64,000 nt of DNA from the NCBI RefSeq assembly GCF_001831495.1, contig NZ_CP017689.1, positions 868,001 through 932,000 of the forward strand. Direction: 5' to 3'. The notes beneath the pieces were generated by a model, which searched no databases, was not told the origin of the DNA, and worked only from the letters and a program-made list of their open reading frames with translations. Shown piece by piece: positions 4,340 through 58,276 of the stretch. Source of the stretch: Thalassotalea crassostreae. Lineage in GTDB: Bacteria; Pseudomonadota; Gammaproteobacteria; Enterobacterales; Alteromonadaceae. Each line of letters starts with the position of its first letter. Position 1 is the first letter of the stretch. The position numbers and the translations under genes are program-made.

Positions 4340-5194
4340 TTAGTCTATAGCTTTCTTTATGAGCGCTACAATCTTTCCTCTTTTGTTAAGCATGTAAATA
4401 ACTCTTAATCCATTTGATTTTAGATTTCTTTGTTCAATATTGTGGTTATCTAATTTTTTTAATGCTGATTGATTGGCAAGTTCAATACCGATCATACCTA
4501 ATTCCAATATTAAAAACTTTACCATAGGTGAAGCACTAGCGTACGCACTAGCTGCTGCTGCTCCTTTCGCAACAAGAGGAGTAGCAAGAAAAGGAGTAGC
4601 CGCAACAGCTCCAGTTAATGAAAACCCTTCCATTTGCCCACTTTGAATGGAGTCTCGAAGTTGCCTTTGCCCTTCCATTAACTCATACCATTTAGTTCCG
4701 GCATCAAGACGACAAGCGTAGCTGCATACTATGCTGGCGCTTGTTAAAACTCCATCATCAAATTTCAGGGCATGGTATTCAGCTCTTGCCCCATCATCCT
4801 CACTCTCTAAATATTTAGCTGCCTCAGAATCATTCAAAGCCTTTACTGTAGCTGCGTTCTGTTTTGTTATTTGTTCGTTAAAAGATAAGCCTGATGCCCC
4901 AAGTGAACTAATGCCGCTACCGTTTGAAACATTTGGCAGATCATTCCAGTTACTTGCCCCTTCTATACGAACCCATTCACCATCAACTTGCTTGTAGACA
5001 TTTCCATCTCCGTCTTTCCCTAAAACAGGTTCTGATTCATATCCTGTAGGATCAATTCCCATAATGGGATTATTCATAATGTAAGAATAACCATTAATCG
5101 ATTGCGTATTCGTTGGTGATTGAATAAACGGATCAACACTCATGAAACGGCCAAGGTTTGGATCGTAGATTCTGCCGTTCATATGAATTAACAC
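4340..5194 (-). CDS. 5'-truncated Rhs tip with variable C-terminal toxin domain
   Basis: The minus-strand frame encodes the last part of an Rhs core (NGRIYDPNLGRF, then YSYIMNNP and the end-of-core GIDPTG) followed by a unique tail of about 230 residues. Full Rhs proteins exceed 1000 aa, so nearly all of the YD-repeat shell is missing. An in-frame stop lies two codons before the first possible start (GTG at 5194; ATG at 5182). Residues ~190-245 are strongly hydrophobic and alanine-rich, suggesting a membrane-inserting toxin; the end is basic. No known toxin motif is recognised. This is an orphan tip, probably silent unless recombined onto a complete rhs gene, and is followed by a membrane immunity candidate. 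Confidence 0.7.
   Translation of the reverse strand: MLIHMNGRIYDPNLGRFMSVDPFIQSPTNTQSINGYSYIMNNPIMGIDPTGYESEPVLGKDGDGNVYKQVDGEWVRIEGASNWNDLPNVSNGSGISSLGASGLSFNEQITKQNAATVKALNDSEAAKYLESEDDGARAEYHALKFDDGVLTSASIVCSYACRLDAGTKWYELMEGQRQLRDSIQSGQMEGFSLTGAVAATPFLATPLVAKGAAAASAYASASPMVKFLILELGMIGIELANQSALKKLDNHNIEQRNLKSNGLRVIYMLNKRGKIVALIKKAID
5159..5188 (-). repeat. 30-bp direct repeat, copy B: start of the Rhs tip
   Basis: This is the second copy of the 3743-3772 repeat, here in frame as the first ten core residues of the truncated Rhs tip. The two copies bracket 1386 bp that hold the toxin and immunity candidates. Confidence 0.85.
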
Positions 5195-5303: not shown

Positions 5304-5723
5304 TTAAATAAAGACTTGTGGAGCAACATTAAATCGTTTTGATAAGGCCCTAATGTGCTCTAAGGATAGTTTCCTTTTACCATTTAAAATCATAGAAACC
5401 ATACTTTTCCCACCAATTTCTTCTTTAAAATCTGTGGTATTTAAGCCATGCTGCTCTATTAATACTCTTAAAACAGAAAGCCCATTATCAAGCTTTTCTA
5501 TTTCATGGTTGAATAATTTAAATTCATTTGAATTTTCTTCCCATTCATTAATGGCTAAAGAAAGTAAATCAATTAAAGGTTTTTGGTCATCATAATCATC
5601 AATTAATTCATCCATAAGTTCTAAGGCAGCATTATATTCAGATTCATTTTCAATGTGAGTAAGAAAACTAACACTATCAAATAAAATCTTAGCTTGATGC
5701 TTTAATTGCGCTGTATTTAACAT
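5304..5723 (-). CDS. higA: HigA-type antitoxin with Xre helix-turn-helix
   Basis: A 139-aa protein; the ATG at 5723 is chosen because AGGAG sits 7 bases upstream, whereas a longer frame from 5771 would overlap the toxin gene. The N-terminal two thirds are helical and acidic; the last ~60 residues form a helix-turn-helix (LIEQHGLNTTDFKEEIGG, then SMVSMILNGKRKLSLEHI). In HigBA systems the antitoxin neutralises the mRNA-cleaving toxin and represses its own promoter. The toxin gene ends 10 bases upstream, the inverted (toxin-first) order typical of HigBA. The matching operator is at 6046-6102. Confidence 0.85.
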   Translation of the reverse strand: MLNTAQLKHQAKILFDSVSFLTHIENESEYNAALELMDELIDDYDDQKPLIDLLSLAINEWEENSNEFKLFNHEIEKLDNGLSVLRVLIEQHGLNTTDFKEEIGGKSMVSMILNGKRKLSLEHIRALSKRFNVAPQVFI

Positions 5724-5733
5724 ATCTATACTC

Positions 5734-6033
5734 CTATGAATATTTCTTACAAAATTTGTCGTAATCTGCATGTGTAAAAATGTGCTTTATGTACATGCGT
5801 TGATCTCTAAACTCAATAAAAGCAATTAATCTTAAATTGTTTCCACCAATATCTATCACATACCATTTGTCGACATATTTGAAATTATCTAATGAAGAGA
5901 ATATCTGCTTTAACTGTTCTGGTGTTTTAAATTCATTTTTCTTTAACGCATTATAAGTATCAAGTAGTGCTTTAGCGTCATTCGGATACTTTTTTATTGC
6001 ATCGTTAAAAGGCTTTCTAGATATTATGTGCAT
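5734..6033 (-). CDS. higB: HigB-type mRNA interferase toxin
   Basis: A 99-aa protein beginning MHIISRKP, the usual start of the HigB family within the RelE superfamily. The strand-rich C-terminal half contains WYVIDIGGNNLRLIAF and ends YIKHIFTHADYDKF; the histidines and basic residues near the end are the conserved part of the family. These toxins cut mRNA, usually at ribosomes. The start at 6033 is preferred over an in-frame codon at 6126, because the 31 extra residues would be encoded across the promoter and operators. The partner antitoxin follows after 10 bases. Confidence 0.88.
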   Translation of the reverse strand: MHIISRKPFNDAIKKYPNDAKALLDTYNALKKNEFKTPEQLKQIFSSLDNFKYVDKWYVIDIGGNNLRLIAFIEFRDQRMYIKHIFTHADYDKFCKKYS

Positions 6034-6045
6034 TAGTATTTCTTT

Positions 6046-6102
6046 ATAGTTCACAATGTGTGAACTATAACATTCATATTCAATGTTTGCAATTTGTGAA
6101 CT
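6046..6102 (-). promoter_or_regulatory. higBA promoter with two operator palindromes
   Basis: On the minus strand a -35 TTGCAA (6087-6092) and a -10 TATAGT (6064-6069) are separated by 17 bases. A perfect 10-bp inverted repeat, ATAGTTCACA-ATG-TGTGAACTAT (6046-6068), covers the -10. A second, imperfect copy (6084-6102, right half TGTGAACT) covers the -35; the centres are 36 bp apart. This is an autorepression layout for the HigA/HigB complex. Confidence 0.75.
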
Positions 6103-6547
6103 GAAACGCATTAATAATATTCTCAATTAATATCTTAAATTTGACATTAATATTTATTAAGACTTTAATGGTGAATATAAAGTTCTTTAAAATTCATTAA
6201 TTTACATGATTTAAATAATATTAAGTTATATGAATAGTCGAATTTACGATCCTGTCTCAGATTGAATCTTTCAGATAGGCCGCATGAACCTTCACTATAA
6301 GTAAGAAAATCTATAATCGTATTTTTAAGTATCAAAACAATGCTATTAGCCAAGCTGCTACCTCATATTAAATAAGGCACTATTGCAATAAAGTCGGCAA
6401 TTTAAAAATTGAAACTCAAGCTCATGACAACAATTGCATTGTAATTAACCTTCATTTGCTCACAAAACTACCAAGCTGGTTAAAAATTATATAAACTTAG
6501 CAATATTAGTTATTAATCAATAAGCTAGATTGGTCGTATTGAGCCTT
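6103..6547. other. Gene-free AT-rich stretch between higBA and the next gene
   Basis: Apart from the small Rhs relic at 6230-6271, I see no supported gene. A 62-codon minus-strand frame at 6165-6353 has no ribosome site and runs antisense to the relic, so it is not called. Confidence 0.5.
6230..6271 (+). pseudogene. Decayed Rhs core fragment on the plus strand
   Basis: The plus strand reads MNSRIYDPVSD followed by a TGA stop. MN-x-RIYDP is the same hallmark as in the Rhs tip at 5188-5159, but in the opposite orientation and with different codons, so it is not a copy of that repeat. After RIYDPV the expected LGRF can be matched only through point changes, including TGA where CGA is expected. 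It is a small relic and would be easy to miss. Confidence 0.5.
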
Positions 6548-16499: not shown

Positions 16500-16960
16500 T
16501 GATTAGCTTTTGTATTTATTAACGTTTTTAAAAACATGAAAATTATTATTGTGATATCAGTCAGGAAAGTTGAAAATAGCCGTTATTAACCCGGTATATC
16601 CAGAACTTTCGAGTGATGTGTTTACCCAATACGCGTTAGAGTTACGATGTTAAAATAATATCTAACTAAGCGCAAAGTAAGTTGCAATTAATTATCAAAT
16701 AAAATGCAAAAGATTTACTGTAAAACTACTGTATAAAATGACTATCTATTTACAGTGTTTTTAAATTATTCACTGTTTAATTAAACATTATTCTCCTTGG
16801 TGGGAAAATAGTAATAAGATAAATGTTTTAAATATCAATGTTTTATCGTTTTTGTTGTGTTTTATTTTAAAATAAATAAAAAATCCAGTTGATACTGTAC
16901 GATTATACAGTATACTGTTTCGTAACTACTGGATAAAAAGATTACAAATCGGAGACTACA
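16500..16960. other. Divergent mutS-recA intergenic region
   Basis: 461 AT-rich bases without a supported gene. The recA promoter and LexA box lie at its right end (16889-16916). A CTGT-rich zone at 16717-16771 resembles LexA half-sites but shows no correctly spaced pair. Confidence 0.6.
16889..16916 (+). promoter_or_regulatory. recA promoter with LexA (SOS) operator
   Basis: The -35 TTGATA (16889) and -10 TATACT (16911) are 16 bases apart. Between and overlapping them is TACTGTACGATTATACAGTA (16893-16912), a perfect CTGT-N8-ACAG SOS box. The arrangement is nearly the same as the E. coli recA promoter, so recA should be repressed by LexA and induced by DNA damage. Confidence 0.93.
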
Positions 16961-17983
16961 ATGGACGCAAATAAAGAAAAGGCGTTATCAGCAGCGCTAG
17001 GTCAAATTGAAAGACAATTTGGTAAAGGTTCTATCATGAAACTTGGTGATAACCGCAGTATGGAAGTTGAAACTATTTCAACAGGTTCTTTAGCCTTGGA
17101 TGTGGCGCTAGGTGCTGGTGGTTTACCGATGGGACGTGTTGTTGAGATTTACGGTCCTGAATCAAGTGGTAAAACCACGTTAACGCTTGAAGTTATCGCT
17201 GAAGCACAGCGTAACGGTAAAGTTTGTGCCTTTGTTGATGCTGAGCATGCACTTGATCCTATTTATGCTGAGAAGCTTGGTGTAGATATTAATGAATTAT
17301 TAGTGTCGCAACCTGACACTGGTGAGCAAGCATTGGAAATCGTTGATATGTTAAGCCGCTCTGGCGCCGTTGATGTAATCGTAGTCGATTCAGTTGCAGC
17401 TCTTACACCAAAAGCAGAAATTGAAGGTGACATGGGAGATTCGCACATGGGTTTACAAGCACGTATGTTATCGCAAGCAATGCGTAAACTTACTGGTAAC
17501 CTTAAGCAGTCAAATACCATGCTTATTTTCATCAACCAAATTCGTATGAAAATTGGTGTAATGTTTGGTAATCCAGAAACTACAACAGGTGGTAATGCGC
17601 TTAAGTTCTATGCGTCGGTTCGTCTTGATATTCGTCGTATTGGTGCAGTTAAAGAAGGTGATGAGATCACTGGTAACGAAACTCGCGTGAAAGTGGTTAA
17701 AAACAAGATCGCTCCTCCGTTCAAACAAGCAGAGTTCCAAATCTTATATGGTTTAGGTATAAACAGTTTAGGCGAATTAATCGATCTTGGTGTTAAGCAC
17801 AAGATGGTTGAAAAAGCAGGTGCTTGGTATAGCTGTATGGGCGAAAGAATTGGTCAAGGTAAAGCAAATGCTACTAAATACCTTGCTGAAAACCCTGCAA
17901 TGGCGAAAGATTTAGAAGGTAAGTTACGTAGCCTATTATTAGCACCTATCGAACTTACTTCCGAAGAGGAAATCGAAGAGTAA
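16961..17983 (+). CDS. recA: Recombinase RecA
   Basis: A 340-aa strand-exchange ATPase and LexA co-protease. Walker A is GPESSGKTT, Walker [11 protein letters not shown]; the DNA-binding loop region contains [17 protein letters not shown]; and the acidic C-terminal tail ends EEEIEE. GGAG 6 bases before the ATG is the ribosome site. Unlike in most gammaproteobacteria, recX does not follow directly; it is at 26766. Confidence 0.98.
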
Positions 17984-31722: not shown

Positions 31723-31814
31723 GGTGAGGTGGCCGAGAGGCTGAAGGCGCTCCCCTGCTAAGGGAGTATAGGCTTTATACCCTATCGAGGGTTCGAATCC
31801 CTCCCTCACCGCCA
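31723..31814 (+). tRNA. tRNA-Ser (anticodon GCU)
   Basis: The 92-base gene includes an encoded CCA. Anticodon stem CTCCC/GGGAG with loop CTGCTAA places GCT at 31757-31759. A long variable arm, as in all serine tRNAs, and the T-loop GTTCGAATC are visible; the acceptor stem is GGTGAGG/CCTCACC. Position after csrA matches E. coli serV. Confidence 0.97.
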
Positions 31815-31860
31815 TTTAATTTTAGTTTTTAATTAAAATTAAATGGGAAAAAATGATTGC

Positions 31861-31937
31861 GGACGCGTAGCTCAGCTGGATAGAGTACCTGGCTACGAAC
31901 CAGGCGGTCGCAGGTTCGACTCCTGCCGCGTCCGCCA
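31861..31937 (+). tRNA. tRNA-Arg (anticodon ACG), copy 1
   Basis: 77 bases with encoded CCA. Acceptor stem GGACGCG/CGCGTCC, anticodon stem CCTGG/CCAGG, loop CTACGAA with ACG at 31895-31897 (A34 to be edited to inosine by TadA), T-loop TTCGACT. It corresponds to argV/Y/Z/Q after serV in E. coli. Confidence 0.97.
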
Positions 31938-31999
31938 CTTTTCTTAATAGTGAAGTGGTTGTCAATCGAAGTGAGGTATCACTTAAAACTACCGACCGC

Positions 32000-32076
32000 G
32001 GACGCGTAGCTCAGCTGGATAGAGTACCTGGCTACGAACCAGGCGGTCGCAGGTTCGACTCCTGCCGCGTCCGCCA
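32000..32076 (+). tRNA. tRNA-Arg (anticodon ACG), copy 2
   Basis: Identical in sequence to copy 1 across all 77 bases; a 62-base spacer separates them. A terminator follows 10 bases later. Degenerate derivatives continue downstream. Confidence 0.97.
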
Positions 32077-32086
32077 CATTAAATAG

Positions 32087-32117
32087 AAAACCCGAACCGA
32101 AAGGCTCGGGTTTTTTA
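32087..32117 (+). terminator. Terminator of the tRNA operon (hairpin A, first copy)
   Basis: AAAACCCGA pairs with TCGGGTTTT and is followed by T residues, 10 bases after the last intact tRNA. Confidence 0.9.
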
Positions 32118-32133
32118 TTGCCTAAATTTTTCT

Positions 32134-32190
32134 GAGTACCAGGCGCTAATACAAGATCCCAGGCATTCGCAGTTTGACCCTTGTAGCAAC
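32134..32190 (+). pseudogene. tRNA-Arg relic 1 (most decayed)
   Basis: It carries the same 5' segment as relic 3 (CAGGCGCTAATACAAGATC) and then a mutated tRNA-Arg 3' half (CATTCGCAGTTTGACCC in place of GGTCGCAGGTTCGACTC). There is no acceptor 5' strand, no D arm and no CCA. Confidence 0.75.
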
Positions 32191-32203
32191 CTCAACATTA
32201 AAC

Positions 32204-32234
32204 GAAAAGCCCATCCATTAGGATGGGCTTTTTC
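32204..32234 (+). terminator. Hairpin B terminator, first copy
   Basis: GAAAAGCCCATCC pairs with GGATGGGCTTTTT around a short loop. The second copy (32461-32485) has lost its T-run. Confidence 0.8.
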
Positions 32235-32269
32235 GTATCTGGAAGAAAATTTATTGATGGTTCTGCCAG

Positions 32270-32332
32270 GAGTAGCTGGCGCTAATACAAGAGCCCAGGC
32301 GGTCGCAGGTTCGACTCCTGCCGCGTCCACCA
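32270..32332 (+). pseudogene. tRNA-Arg relic 2
   Basis: The 3' half from the anticodon stem to CCA is intact except for discriminator A in place of G (32329). The 5' part is replaced by GTAGCTGGCGCTAATACAAG; CTGG can still pair with CCAG, but the loop is enlarged and has no anticodon. The D arm and acceptor 5' strand are missing. Confidence 0.75.
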
Positions 32333-32342
32333 CATTAAATAG

Positions 32343-32373
32343 AAAACCCGAACCGAAAGGCTCGGGTTTTTTA
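32343..32373 (+). terminator. Hairpin A terminator, second copy
   Basis: Identical to 32087-32117, displaced by 256 bases. Confidence 0.85.
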
Positions 32374-32389
32374 TTGCCTAAATTTTTCT

Positions 32390-32452
32390 GAGTACCAGGC
32401 GCTAATACAAGATCCCAGGCGGTCGCAGGTTCGACTCCTGCCGCGTCCGCCA
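32390..32452 (+). pseudogene. tRNA-Arg relic 3
   Basis: From 32414 to 32452 it is identical to the 3' half of the intact tRNA-Arg genes, including the discriminator and CCA. The 5' segment is the same CAGGCGCTAATACAAGATC as relic 1. It lacks an anticodon and a D arm, so it cannot be a working tRNA. Confidence 0.75.
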
Positions 32453-32666
32453 CATTAAACGAAAAGCCCATCCATTAGGATGGGCAATTAGTATCTAAGA
32501 GGAAATAGATTGTTGATTATTCAAATTCAAATGATTATTGTTAAAATTCTAAGTTGTTGAGTAAAACTCTCTCAATTTGTTCTGCTAGCATAACGAGAAA
32601 GATTGAGAGCTAATTCAACAAATTGTGTCCTATAGACGCATAAACTAACACCACGCAGAGAATAAA

Positions 32667-52030: not shown

Positions 52031-53230
52031 ATGGGCTTGAAAAAGTTTATTGAAGATATCGAGCCGCATTTTGAAAAAGGCGGTAAGCACGAGAAATGGT
52101 TCGCATTATACGAAGCCGTTGCTACAGGCTTATTTACTCCTGGTTATGTAACTAAGGGTAAAACTCATATCCGTGACAGCATTGATCTTAAACGTATTAT
52201 GATCACTGTTTGGTTAGCAGTATTCCCTGCAATGTTCTTTGGTATGTACAACATCGGTTTCCAAGCGGTTGACGCTTTGGCTGCTGGTTTTGCTACACCT
52301 GATACATGGCAAACTGCTCTATTTAGCATGCTTGGCGGCACATTAACAGTTGATTCCGGCTGGTTTAGTATGATGCTATACGGCGCATGTTTCTTCCTAC
52401 CTATCTATGCAACAGTATTTATTGTTGGTGGTTTCTGGGAAGTACTATTTGCTGCAGTACGTAAGCATGAAGTTAACGAAGGTTTCTTCGTATCATCTAT
52501 TCTATTTGCTCTTATCCTTCCTGCAACTATCCCGTTATGGCAAGCAGCGCTTGGTATCACGTTTGGTATTGTAATCGCTAAAGAAATCTTTGGTGGTACT
52601 GGTAAGAACTTCTTGAACCCGGCATTAGCGGGTCGTGCATTCTTATTCTTCGCATACCCTGCAGAAATTTCAGGTGATGCAGTGTGGGTTGCAGTTGACG
52701 GCTTCTCTGGCGCTACACCATTGAGCGCAGCATTAGCTGGTACCGTTGATTACACAATCAACGCTGCTTGGTGGGATGCATTCTGGGGCTTCATTCCTGG
52801 TTCTGTTGGTGAAGTATCTACGTTCGCTATATTACTTGGTGGTGCATATATCCTTTATAAAGGTATCGCATCATGGCGCATCGTTTTAGGTGTGTTCGGT
52901 GGTATGGTTGCAATGTCTTTCTTATTCAACCAAATCGGTAGTGACACAAACGCTATGTTTGCTATGCCTTGGTACTGGCACTTAGTCGTTGGTGGTTTTG
53001 CTTTTGGTATGATGTTTATGGCAACAGACCCTGTTTCAGCATCATTTACAAACACCGGTAAATACTTCTTCGGTGCCTTAGTAGGTATCATGGTAGTACT
53101 TGTACGTGTTGTTAACCCTGCTTTCCCTGAAGGTATGATGTTAGCAATCCTTTTTGCCAACTTGTTTGCACCACTATTTGACTACTTCGTTGTTAAATCG
53201 AATGTGAAAAGGAGACTTGCTCGTGGCTAG
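52031..53230 (+). CDS. nqrB: Na+-NQR subunit B
   Basis: A 399-aa membrane subunit with about ten helices. The threonine that carries covalent FMN is in SGATPLS; riboflavin and the Na+ pathway are also housed in this subunit in characterised enzymes. It begins 2 bases after nqrA. Its last codons overlap the nqrC start. Confidence 0.96.
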
Positions 53231-55305: not shown

Positions 55306-56532
55306 ATGCAAGAGATTATTCTAGGCGTAGGCATGTTCACCGCTATTGTTGTTGCCTTAGTATTAGTGATTCTATTCGCTAAATCTAAGTTGGTAAGTGA
55401 CGGTGACGTGCAAATTTCAATTAACGGCGATCCAGAGAAAGCTGTTACTACTGCTGCTGGCGGTAAACTACTTGGCGCATTAGCTGACCAAGGTATTTTC
55501 ATTCCATCAGCCTGTGGTGGCGGTGGTACATGTGGACAGTGTCGAGTAGACGTACATTCAGGTGGTGGTGATATTCTTCCAACTGAATTAGGTCACATCA
55601 CTAAGCGTGAAGCGAAAGAAGGTTGTCGTTTAGCATGTCAAGTTGCGGTTAAACAAGACATGGAAATTGAACTTGAAGACGAGATCTTCGGTGTTCAACA
55701 ATGGGAATGTGAAGTTATCTCTAACGATAACAAAGCGACGTTCATCAAAGAACTTAAGCTTGGTATTCCTGATGGCGAATCTGTACCGTTTCGTGCCGGT
55801 GGTTACATTCAAATTGAAGCACCTGCGCATCACGTTAAATATTCAGATTTCGATATTGAAGAACAATATCGTGGTGACTGGGAACACTTTGGTTTCTTCG
55901 ATGTAGAATCAAAAGTTGATGAGCCGACTTTACGTGCTTATTCAATGGCGAACTACCCAGAAGAAGAAGGCATTATCATGCTTAACGTGCGTATCGCTAC
56001 GCCGCCTCCTGGACGCTTACATTTACCAGCTGGTAAAATGTCATCATTTATCTTTAACCTTAAGCCTGGCGATAAGGTTACTATTTCTGGTCCATTTGGT
56101 GAGTTCTTCGCTAAAGAAACTGAAAACGAAATGGTATTTATCGGTGGTGGTGCAGGTATGGCGCCAATGCGTTCTCATATCTTTGACCAACTTAAGCGTC
56201 TTAAGACTAAGCGTAAGATGAGTTTCTGGTATGGTGCACGCTCACTTCGTGAAATGTTCTATGAAGATGATTACAACGGTCTAGCGGCTGAGAATGATAA
56301 TTTCGATTGGCATGTGGCTCTATCGGATCCTCAACCAGAAGATAACTGGGATGGTATGACAGGTTTCATTCATAATGTACTTTATGAAAACTACTTGAAA
56401 GACCACGAAGCGCCAGAAGATTGTGAGTACTACATGTGTGGTCCACCAATGATGAACGCGGCAGTTATCGGTATGCTTAAAGATTTAGGCGTGGAAGATG
56501 AAAATATCTTACTTGATGATTTTGGTGGTTAA
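55306..56532 (+). CDS. nqrF: Na+-NQR subunit F (NADH dehydrogenase, 2Fe-2S and FAD)
   Basis: A 408-aa subunit and the entry point for electrons from NADH. It has a membrane helix at ~3-25 and a 2Fe-2S ferredoxin domain ([10 protein letters not shown] with a further C in CRLAC). The FAD domain has RAYSMANYP and the NADH domain [12 protein letters not shown]. The end [10 protein letters not shown] is standard. It follows a 55-base gap with a hairpin and an AAAGGA ribosome site. Confidence 0.97.
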
Positions 56533-56568: not shown

Positions 56569-56597
56569 GAAAGGAGTGCATTGCACTCCTTTTTTTT
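56569..56597 (+). terminator. nqr operon terminator
   Basis: AAAGGAGTGCA pairs with TGCACTCCTTT and is followed by a T-run. Confidence 0.92.
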
Positions 56598-56754: not shown

Positions 56755-56904
56755 ATGAAAAACTCAAATAGTGCTCGAATCAGCGAACTTGCGGATAAGA
56801 TTATCGCCGGTACTATCAATTCGTTTGAAGAAGAAGAATTTACCTACTTGTATCATCAGTTACGTGAATGTGAGCAAGATAGTTCAGCCAAAGCGTCAAA
56901 CTAA
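56755..56904 (+). CDS. Mini-protein family, member 1 (49 aa)
   Basis: Reads ARISELADKIIAGTINSF, then EEEEFTYLYHQL and a polar tail. It matches the two mini-proteins downstream at R-I/L-x2-LA-x-KII-x-G, an N two residues later, and EE-x-EF-x2-LY. The pattern predicts two helices joined at the Gly/Asn turn. No Shine-Dalgarno is evident, the upstream 15 bases being AT-rich. It lies 150 bases after the nqr terminator. No function is known to me; loose likeness to the N-terminal helical hairpin of FecR-type anti-sigma proteins is noted. Confidence 0.65.
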   Translation: MKNSNSARISELADKIIAGTINSFEEEEFTYLYHQLRECEQDSSAKASN

Positions 56905-57210
56905 TTAGCTGTTTTTCTACCTTCTAGAAAATCAACTTATTTGTTTTTTCAGAATTCATTCTAGAGTTTTTGCCTAAAAGCTCTGTTTAATATCTCTACT
57001 TAAATTTTTTTTTACAACTTCATTCTAAAACTTTTTTTTAACTGCTTTAAACAAACTAACTAATGCATACGAAACTTTCCGTCATTAGGCTTTTTCGCTT
57101 CGTTTGGTATTGATAACAAATTGCTACATTTTGATCGGGTATAACAACAGTATGCTTGTAAATGGTTTGTTAATATCTAGTTATTGATAAATAACGAAGC
57201 GGGAAATGAT
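56905..57210. other. AT-rich gap between mini-protein genes 1 and 2
   Basis: 306 bases with several long T and A runs. TTCATTCTA occurs twice (at about 56955 and 57020), in each case followed within a few bases by a T-run. A promoter for members 2 and 3 must lie here; TATAAC near 57140 is a possible -10. Confidence 0.4.
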
Positions 57211-57339
57211 ATGGCTGAACAACAACATAAGCGTTTAGAGCAATTAGCAAACAAAATAATTGAAGGCACCATAAATCCGCGTGAAGAGCATGAGTTTAAA
57301 GAGCTCTATGCATTGATTCGTGAAGAAGATGCTGAATAA
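57211..57339 (+). CDS. Mini-protein family, member 2 (42 aa)
   Basis: Reads HKRLEQLANKIIEGTINP, then REEHEFKELYALIREE. GGGAA about 6 bases before the ATG is a good ribosome site. It shares LA-x-KII-x-GTIN with member 1 and RLE-x-LA-x-KII with member 3, so it is the shortest and most central version of the family. Highly charged, helical, with no membrane segment or cysteine. Member 3 starts 39 bases downstream, so the two form an operon. Confidence 0.72.
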   Translation: MAEQQHKRLEQLANKIIEGTINPREEHEFKELYALIREEDAE

Positions 57340-57378
57340 AAATTTGTGATTGTTTTAGCTAACGTAGGAGTTAATCGT

Positions 57379-57534
57379 ATGAACAGCAAGCAACAGAGGT
57401 TAGAAGAATTAGCAGAAAAAATTATTTTTGGTAAATCTAATCAAATTGAAGAGAAAGAATTTAATAAACTGTATCAACAATTTAGTCAGATCCCAGCTTA
57501 TAAATCATCAAAAGAATTAAAGTATTTACATTAG
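57379..57534 (+). CDS. Mini-protein family, member 3 (51 aa)
   Basis: Starts at ATG 57379 with TAGGAG 8 bases upstream. Reads QQRLEELAEKIIFGKSNQ, then EEKEFNKLYQQF and a 15-residue tail that is unlike the other members. Core identity with members 1 and 2 shows tandem duplication followed by divergence. Function unknown. Confidence 0.72.
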   Translation: MNSKQQRLEELAEKIIFGKSNQIEEKEFNKLYQQFSQIPAYKSSKELKYLH

Positions 57535-57561
57535 GTTTTGACGTTTGATGAGAATAAATAA

Positions 57562-57586
57562 CGCTAGTGATCAAATATCACCAGCG
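57562..57586. terminator. Hairpin between mini-protein 3 and pdxH
   Basis: CGCTAGTGAT pairs with ATCACCAGCG (one mismatch) between convergent genes. The T-run is weak, so the terminator role is tentative. Confidence 0.4.
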
Positions 57587-57622
57587 CCTATTGCACTTTA
57601 AGAGTTAAGATTAAATACTGGT

Positions 57623-58276
57623 TTAAGGGTGTAAGTTAAAGGTTTGCCAGTTGTCGTCTTGCCTTTCAAAGCAAACTCTATCGTGTAAACGACTCGCTCG
57701 ACCTTGCCAAAACTCTATATAATGTGGCACCACTCTATATCCTCCCCAAAATTCTGGTAGCGGTACTTCCTTACCAGAGAACTCTTTTTCAAACTGCTTC
57801 TCTCTATCCTTTAGTTCATCTGGATATTGATACTTTTCACTTTGCTTCGACGCCCATGCGCCAATTTGACTGCCACGATAGCGGCTATGGAAATATTGCT
57901 CAGATTCTTCCGTTGTCGTGCGCTCGATTGTGCCTTCGATTCTAACTTGACGTTGTAATACGCCCCAATGAAATAATAAAGCGACTTTTTGATTAGCTTC
58001 TAATTCTTGAGATTTTCGTGAGCCGTAATTGGTATAAAATACAAACCCTTTGTCATCGAACGCCTTAAGCAACACCATGCGACAAGATGGTTGCCCATCA
58101 GCACTGCAGCTACTTACCGACATTGATTCCGGCAATAAAATACCTGATTTATTGGCATCATCAAACCACGATTCGAATATTTTAAACGGTGATTTATCAT
58201 CTGGAATTTCAGGTAATGGTAATACTACACCTTGGCCGAAGGTAAACAAGCAGCGTAATTTTTCGAATAAAGTCAT
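57623..58276 (-). CDS. pdxH: Pyridoxine/pyridoxamine 5'-phosphate oxidase
   Basis: A 217-aa FMN enzyme that makes pyridoxal 5'-phosphate. FMN and substrate contacts are seen in SCRMVLLKAFDDKGFVFYTNYGSRK (landmarks RMVLLK and FYTNYGSRK), HWGVLQRQVRIEG, SRYRGSQIGAWAS and EFWQGRASRLHDR. Length and end are as expected for the family. Confidence 0.95.
   Translation of the reverse strand: MTLFEKLRCLFTFGQGVVLPLPEIPDDKSPFKIFESWFDDANKSGILLPESMSVSSCSADGQPSCRMVLLKAFDDKGFVFYTNYGSRKSQELEANQKVALLFHWGVLQRQVRIEGTIERTTTEESEQYFHSRYRGSQIGAWASKQSEKYQYPDELKDREKQFEKEFSGKEVPLPEFWGGYRVVPHYIEFWQGRASRLHDRVCFERQDDNWQTFNLHP

Follow-up and report, generated by a model that had tools for sequence, protein, structure and literature searches.

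A family of free-standing helical-hairpin microproteins in one Alteromonadales family, resembling YnzC and the C-terminal hairpin of DnaG

What is encoded by three very short open reading frames that lie in tandem between two longer genes of Thalassotalea crassostreae? The DNA analysed here, a stretch of 64,000 nucleotides (the window), carries these frames, p1, p2 and p3, between ORFs that we take to be nqrF and pdxH (Table 1). A reading made from the sequence alone had described them as paralogues of 49, 42 and 51 aa, and its coordinates and lengths were right. The shared motif was recovered as well: 15 positions are invariant among the three products (M1, R8, L12, A13, K15, I16, I17, G19, N22, E25, E26, E28, F29, L32 and Y33), and the strict motif is present at three places of the 64 kb window, p1, p2 and p3, with no occurrence in 30 mononucleotide shuffles. 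A p2 query against the organism's own 3.86 Mb genome (E ≤ 10) returned p2, p1 and p3 alone. The three frames are confirmed as real paralogous microgenes.

Table 1. Features of the p1–p3 locus in window coordinates
Feature	Position	Strand	Remark
nqrF-like gene, upstream neighbour of p1–p3	55306..56532	+	
Terminator-like stem-loop 3' of nqrF	56569..56593	+	consensus scan
p1, 49-aa hairpin microprotein	56755..56904	+	start 222 bp past nqrF; clear ribosome site absent
p2, 42-aa hairpin microprotein	57211..57339	+	AlphaFold2 model is a two-helix hairpin, pLDDT 89.9
p3, 51-aa hairpin microprotein, low-confidence tail	57379..57534	+	GGAG ribosome site
Terminator-like stem-loop, pdxH strand	57560..57588	-	consensus scan
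pdxH-like gene, convergent neighbour of p1–p3	57623..58276	-	

The expression signals are uneven. Two good ribosome sites had been claimed; by eye, that of p3 is textbook, with an 8 nt spacer, whereas p2 has a weaker CGGG and none is visible for p1. The suggested operon of the last two genes is plausible: p2 and p3 are 39 bp apart and the consensus scan found no terminator between them, so they are plausibly co-transcribed. The terminator-like element 3' of nqrF implies that p1 may have a separate transcript. Local triplication of the three genes gave an AU p of 0.309, on a tree too short to resolve p1–p3. An RNA feature at the locus was rejected, the only two Rfam matches (E 0.72 and 0.99) both lying far under gathering, and SR1P, ABC_membrane_2 and adhesin P1 were discarded as isolated, sub-threshold single-sequence matches.

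Several other elements of the window were recorded along the way. A HigBA-like toxin-antitoxin pair (5304-6126, minus strand) combines a HigB-type toxin (PF09907, E 1.1e-25) with an overlapping HTH_3 partner. Close to it, a 284-aa ORF (4340-5194, minus strand) has a start that looks like the closing part of an RHS-type repeat protein, and no Pfam match at 0.01; it is perhaps a remnant. One tRNA-Ser and two tRNA-Arg genes occupy 31723-32471, and an antisense ORF beyond them repeats DAAGVEPATAW, perhaps an opposite-strand reading of tRNA-like repeat DNA.

Relatives of p1–p3 were sought at increasing taxonomic distance. A single-sequence protein search gave one match. Within the genus, 9 of 15 genomes, the own genome counted, contain a match at E ≤ 0.1. 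At E ≤ 0.01, a 15-sequence profile matched 23 of 147 genomes of the GTDB family, and a 35-sequence profile matched 85 of 395, spread over 21 of 52 genera. At E ≤ 0.001 family members are present in 78 of the 395 genomes, all in frames of ~44-106 aa; this count excludes four genomes with long-frame matches alone (G149, G295, G091 and G095, the last overlapping its own DnaG) and three with E values of 0.001-0.003 (G104, G258, G355). In 369 class and 299 phylum genomes (overlapping draws), no family member was found in other GTDB families: the mini-sized matches came from the own genome and from G015, of the same family, and one isolated short frame (L080, 93 aa) scored E 0.006. The p1–p3 family is an undescribed set of free-standing alpha-helical-hairpin microproteins confined, as far as tested, to one Alteromonadales family. 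Named matches are hypothetical proteins of Thalassotalea, Thalassomonas and Colwelliaceae, Colwellia records and one uncultured gammaproteobacterium. Most of these genes had been described as below the size that gene finders report; in correction, at least seven relatives are already annotated 'hypothetical protein' in a source. Among the 35 members aligned (A3, from which the near-duplicates L029 and L032 as well as L034 and L037 were excluded), three match PHROGs (best 0.0056, function unknown) and two match the Pfam model T4_RIIA1 (E 0.002); both sets of matches were set aside.

Three types, labelled a, b and c in the present analysis, can be told apart. Type a, the type of the window, follows the pattern R-[IL]-x2-LA-x-K-[IL]-I-x-G..E[EDN]xEFxxLY, and shares a single locus of 2.1-3.1 kb with a pdxH homologue in six of the eight other matching genus genomes (G001, G009, G010, G012, G013 and G014; not G006 or G007). 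Of the eight type-c members in A3, seven adjoin a typA-like ORF (L019, L020, L022, L026, L030, L036 and L041, not L035; names by eye), and by eye a convergent lipoprotein-like ORF lies beyond the typA-like ORF in six of those seven; the same arrangement with a typA-like ORF was seen by eye in G039 (L127). Type b carries a W-N-x-S tail and is multi-copy in Colwellia, with 13 matches in one genome (G039). Tandem pairs recur, as p2–p3, at L138, L139, L141 and L144, and, judged from the coordinates of neighbouring copies, in G012, G074, G107 and G135. At L138 (2550-2717) and L139 (3982-4134) a more diverged second hairpin ORF lies directly 3' of a type-a gene; the two ORFs of L138 overlap, so their translation is possibly coupled.

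Selection on these genes was measured across relatives. By the Nei-Gojobori method, dN/dS came to 0.11, 0.15, 0.11, 0.04 and 0.23 in five of seven within-group pairs, the other two having a saturated dS. A second set of 45 type-b pairs, made up of paralogues and phage copies, included seven with saturation, and the remaining 38 lay at 0.09-0.40. These values, 0.04-0.40 overall, describe related pairs and not p1–p3 themselves, whose close relatives (93% identical to p2, 94% to p3) are protein records only. The dN/dS check suggested by the sequence-only reading thus came out in favour of coding: relatives in 9 of 15 genus genomes and ratios below 1 in every computable pair indicate selected coding genes. 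Together with the absence of the motif from the 30 shuffles, the dN/dS of the relatives led us to reject p1–p3 as chance ORFs.

The same early reading had likened the turn of the hairpin to the N-terminal helices of FecR-type anti-sigma factors, in which case the hairpin would bind a sigma factor. The FecR-type N-terminus (DUF4880, PF16220) is likewise short, a hairpin whose turn is similar; the loose turn pattern G-x-x-[ST]-x-x-E is present, RsiW is among the weak fold matches of p2, and by eye an ECF-sigma-like ORF (L153:5235-5765, minus strand) is convergent to one type-b gene. However, hhalign against FecR/DUF4880 (one of 25 loci excluded from that profile as below cut-off) reached a probability of only 11.9% (E 0.0025, 17 columns), within the range of shuffled sequences, and DUF4880 is absent from the own genome at E ≤ 0.001. 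The neighbours of p1–p3 are nqrF- and pdxH-like and not an ECF sigma-factor gene, and by eye no regular sigma-factor neighbour was seen in the listed family loci. With the profile match at control level and DUF4880 missing from the genome, a FecR/anti-sigma identity was rejected, and regulation in the anti-sigma manner is very improbable. As a whole, the interpretation given by the sequence-only reading is supported in part.

The nearest known protein to the family is YnzC of Bacillus subtilis (UPF0291/DUF896, PF05979). The two-helix hairpin foreseen from the sequence is what AlphaFold2 returned for p2, and the top fold match of this model is the YnzC structure 3bhp (TM 0.94, rmsd 1.1 Å, 42 of 42 residues). 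A PDB sequence search with the microproteins found three YnzC chains at E 1.8e-6 to 4.1e-6, the next match standing at 0.0069, and hhalign against YnzC gave 95.4% (E 1.8e-8, 41 ungapped columns); the YnzC alignment (A5) held 27 of 120 listed DUF896 proteins (of 408), mostly from Bacillus and near kin. The microproteins keep R, L, K, [ST], E, E and L at equivalent positions. Of the YnzC signature R-I-N-x-L-x-x-K / E-x-x-E-Q / L-R-x-E-Y they retain R, L, K, E, E and L; by eye LRxEY is absent, and in all 35 an F, L or Y takes the place of the Q after the second Glu. The conserved C-terminal half of DUF896 (..DPEGNDVTPEKLK..) is also missing, the microproteins ending earlier or carrying other tails (by eye), and copy number differs, with up to 13 matches per genome.

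Scores against the curated family model define the relationship further. The Pfam DUF896 model matches 12 of the 35 aligned members at E ≤ 10 (best 3.1e-4) and none of p1–p3 at that threshold, and its gathering cut-off (24.2 bits) is exceeded in none of 196 family genomes. Because p1–p3 do not match the model and the family lacks the DUF896 C-terminal half, we regard these proteins as YnzC-like and not as members: they are either related to YnzC at a distance or closely analogous to it in structure. One 283-aa frame (L119, in G177) opens with a hairpin of the DUF896/mini kind (PF05979, E 0.0075), which is possibly a domain of this larger protein. The flanking sequence differs as well. YnzC is reportedly under SOS (LexA) control in B. 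subtilis, going by the title of its structure paper; unlike there, no LexA box (CTGTN8ACAG, at most one mismatch) lies near p1–p3, the nearest being at 53012 and 58901, and SOS control through such a box was rejected. The scan is able to find boxes: it recovered a perfect LexA-box-like site (16895-16910), 50 bp 5' of a recA-like ORF that starts at 16961.

A second likeness, to the extreme C-terminus of primase, may bear on function. The DnaG alignment (A4, n = 29) comprised E. coli and 28 of 30 family loci, L093 and L112 being excluded as their tails were out of register. Against it, hhalign gave 88.2% for the microproteins (E 2.9e-6, 36 ungapped columns) and 85.8% for YnzC (E 5.4e-6). The DnaG register reads R +0, L +4, K +7, [STN] +14, E +17, E +20, L +24, and R +0, L +4, K +7, E +17, E +20 and L +24 are common to the 35 microproteins, 29 DnaG and 27 YnzC sequences with five exceptions overall; R..L..K and [ST]..E..E[LFY]..L thus recur in ungapped register. 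The match is also local. Among 47 windows over the last 400 aa of DnaG, the three covering the terminal hairpin score 29.7, 29.6 and 24.9 and the next 13.3, and none of 150 shuffles exceeds 20.1, where the microprotein-hairpin match scores 29.8. There are differences too: the microproteins are free-standing ORFs of 42-51 aa without C1 bundle, polymerase or zinc domains.

Database searches reached the same site from two directions. Outside the family, the search of the 369 class genomes gave seven matches, and the four best are the extreme C-terminus of DnaG (Pfam check), two of these four coming from a single genus. The curated DUF896 model, which was built independently of the present data, has one match in 274 Gammaproteobacteria genomes at E ≤ 0.01, and this is again the DnaG C-terminal hairpin. 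In the 196 family genomes its top match is DnaG; the six matches at E ≤ 0.01 are one DnaG, one microprotein and four other proteins or frames, and among all 29 matches at least four are DnaG, identified in two cases through Pfam and in two through their coordinates, and at least one is a microprotein, three further 583-aa frames standing outside both counts. In the PDB, the DnaG-hairpin profile ranks YnzC next after DnaG (E 0.0039).

These observations suggest a role at the replicative helicase. In the available parts of the sources, the helicase-binding domain of DnaG combines a bundle, C1, with a helical hairpin, C2 (PMC6163395), and is suggested to meet N-terminal hairpin dimers of DnaB (PMC10359460). 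From these two features comes the proposal that the microproteins bind DnaB in place of primase or beside it, acting at its collar as a competitor or an adaptor. They would be detached copies of the helicase-docking hairpin of primase, each free hairpin with the C2 pattern docking at the N-terminal hairpin collar of DnaB or pairing with another hairpin as DnaB hairpins do. Collar binding might then lower, time or redirect primase recruitment, with the proteins acting singly or as two-hairpin pairs such as p2 with p3. We hold this proposal as possible though doubtful. In a Bacillus model the primase-helicase interface is made of three separate regions of the primase C-terminal domain (PMC2761005, as far as its available part goes), so a lone hairpin may bind weakly. 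No mappable list of DnaG hairpin contact residues was found in the literature available in part. Type a alone (A2) matches DnaG less well (69.5%, E 4.2e-5), which appears to count against docking.

The main rival, and a likelier one than DnaB docking, is that the microproteins are YnzC-like hairpins whose resemblance to DnaG reflects convergent rules of construction (capping box, core leucines, salt bridges), and that in reality they bind a partner unrelated to DnaB. The shared residues could then be mere needs of any small autonomous hairpin. Several results fit this explanation: no DnaG is present among the seven outside matches of the 299 phylum genomes; the reciprocal search with the DnaG-hairpin profile matches the microproteins weakly (best E 0.0013 among the matches listed); the YnzC profile finds YnzC alone in the PDB at E ≤ 10, and no DnaG; and unrelated hairpins give moderate structural matches. 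DnaG does not appear in the Foldseek listing for the p2 model, an absence that excludes nothing. Another possible partner is indicated by the MecA interactome of Streptococcus mutans, which lists a DUF896-family protein (PMC10845952, in its accessible portion). On the other hand, the class-draw and DUF896-model matches converge on one site in one protein, controls elsewhere in DnaG and shuffles do not score, and the FecR N-terminal hairpins, which are hairpins too, fail to match. On balance, we give convergence a chance somewhat short of even.

A broader version of the docking proposal would unite YnzC/DUF896 and the microproteins as detached docking hairpins of primase, a single superfamily occupying the DnaG site on the replicative helicase, setting how often primase is admitted and used by bacteria and filamentous phages alike. 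This extension is distinctly unlikely. The Bacillus and Helicobacter DnaG structures of PMC6163395 are absent from the PDB matches of the DnaG-hairpin profile, so the pattern is seemingly not general to DnaG; it was seen in gammaproteobacterial DnaG only, and DnaB binding by the microproteins is a proposal. The absence of those structures and the lack of DnaG among the YnzC profile's PDB matches count against the Firmicute side. The co-evolution of YnzC with polC, which appears in the part available of PMC3814617, fits helicase docking, a weak point in its favour. Solved structures of YnzC exist; in the literature as available in part, no functional study of YnzC, DUF896 or UPF0291 was found, nor a mention of the present family or of a YnzC-DnaG link, for which a remark in the YnzC structure paper is possible. 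For the pneumococcal homologue, the accessible text of PMC4143570 states that a viable knockout was not obtained and terms the gene potentially essential.

The genomic context of the type-b genes adds a phage connection. Six phage-like elements carry microprotein genes 0.1-0.7 kb past a Zot gene (Zot-to-mini distance 110-703 bp): two in G039 (L128, L129), one in G306, of another genus, where two microprotein genes lie beside Zot (L144), and three in viral contigs (L145, L146, L147), the full yield of a viral-contig scan, all with Zot upstream on the same strand. These six we read as filamentous phages. Among 12 stretches around the G039 copies (L125-L136), Zot lies beside the microprotein gene in L128 and L129, a phage portal gene is found in L130 and a phage integrase in L133, the Pfam run having covered selected neighbour ORFs. 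L145 has an 86-aa ORF between Zot and the microprotein gene; L146 also carries a Rep_trans replication gene and DUF1293, and its region looks identical to one of Colwellia sp. MB3u-41 (L151). Under the docking proposal, filamentous prophages might carry these genes for tuning host or phage DNA synthesis; no small-protein or inovirus replication mimic was found described in the portions of the literature at hand.

The Zot-linked loci, the portal and integrase neighbours in G039 and the high copy number of that Colwellia genome would suit another account, in which prophages spread the genes as small accessories whose products affect the physiology of phage or host (superinfection, lysogeny, assembly), the chromosomal copies near pdxH and typA being remnants that became domesticated. 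We consider this unlikely, since types a and c hold recurrent chromosomal places under purifying selection and type-a relatives are absent from the viral contigs, where a type-a scan gave 46 pattern matches and no relative. A tblastn search with one type-b query likewise found no match in phage and plasmid collections.

If the superfamily reading were true, it would supply a function for an uncharacterised Firmicute protein that is potentially essential in one species. Should the microproteins bind DnaB, they would add a new level to the regulation of primer synthesis, in cells and in filamentous phages. The sequence link from hairpin to primase offers a concrete and cheap hypothesis, DnaB binding. 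Even if that binding proves false, the present work defines a Gram-negative, often multi-copy and partly phage-borne family of a size easily missed by annotation.
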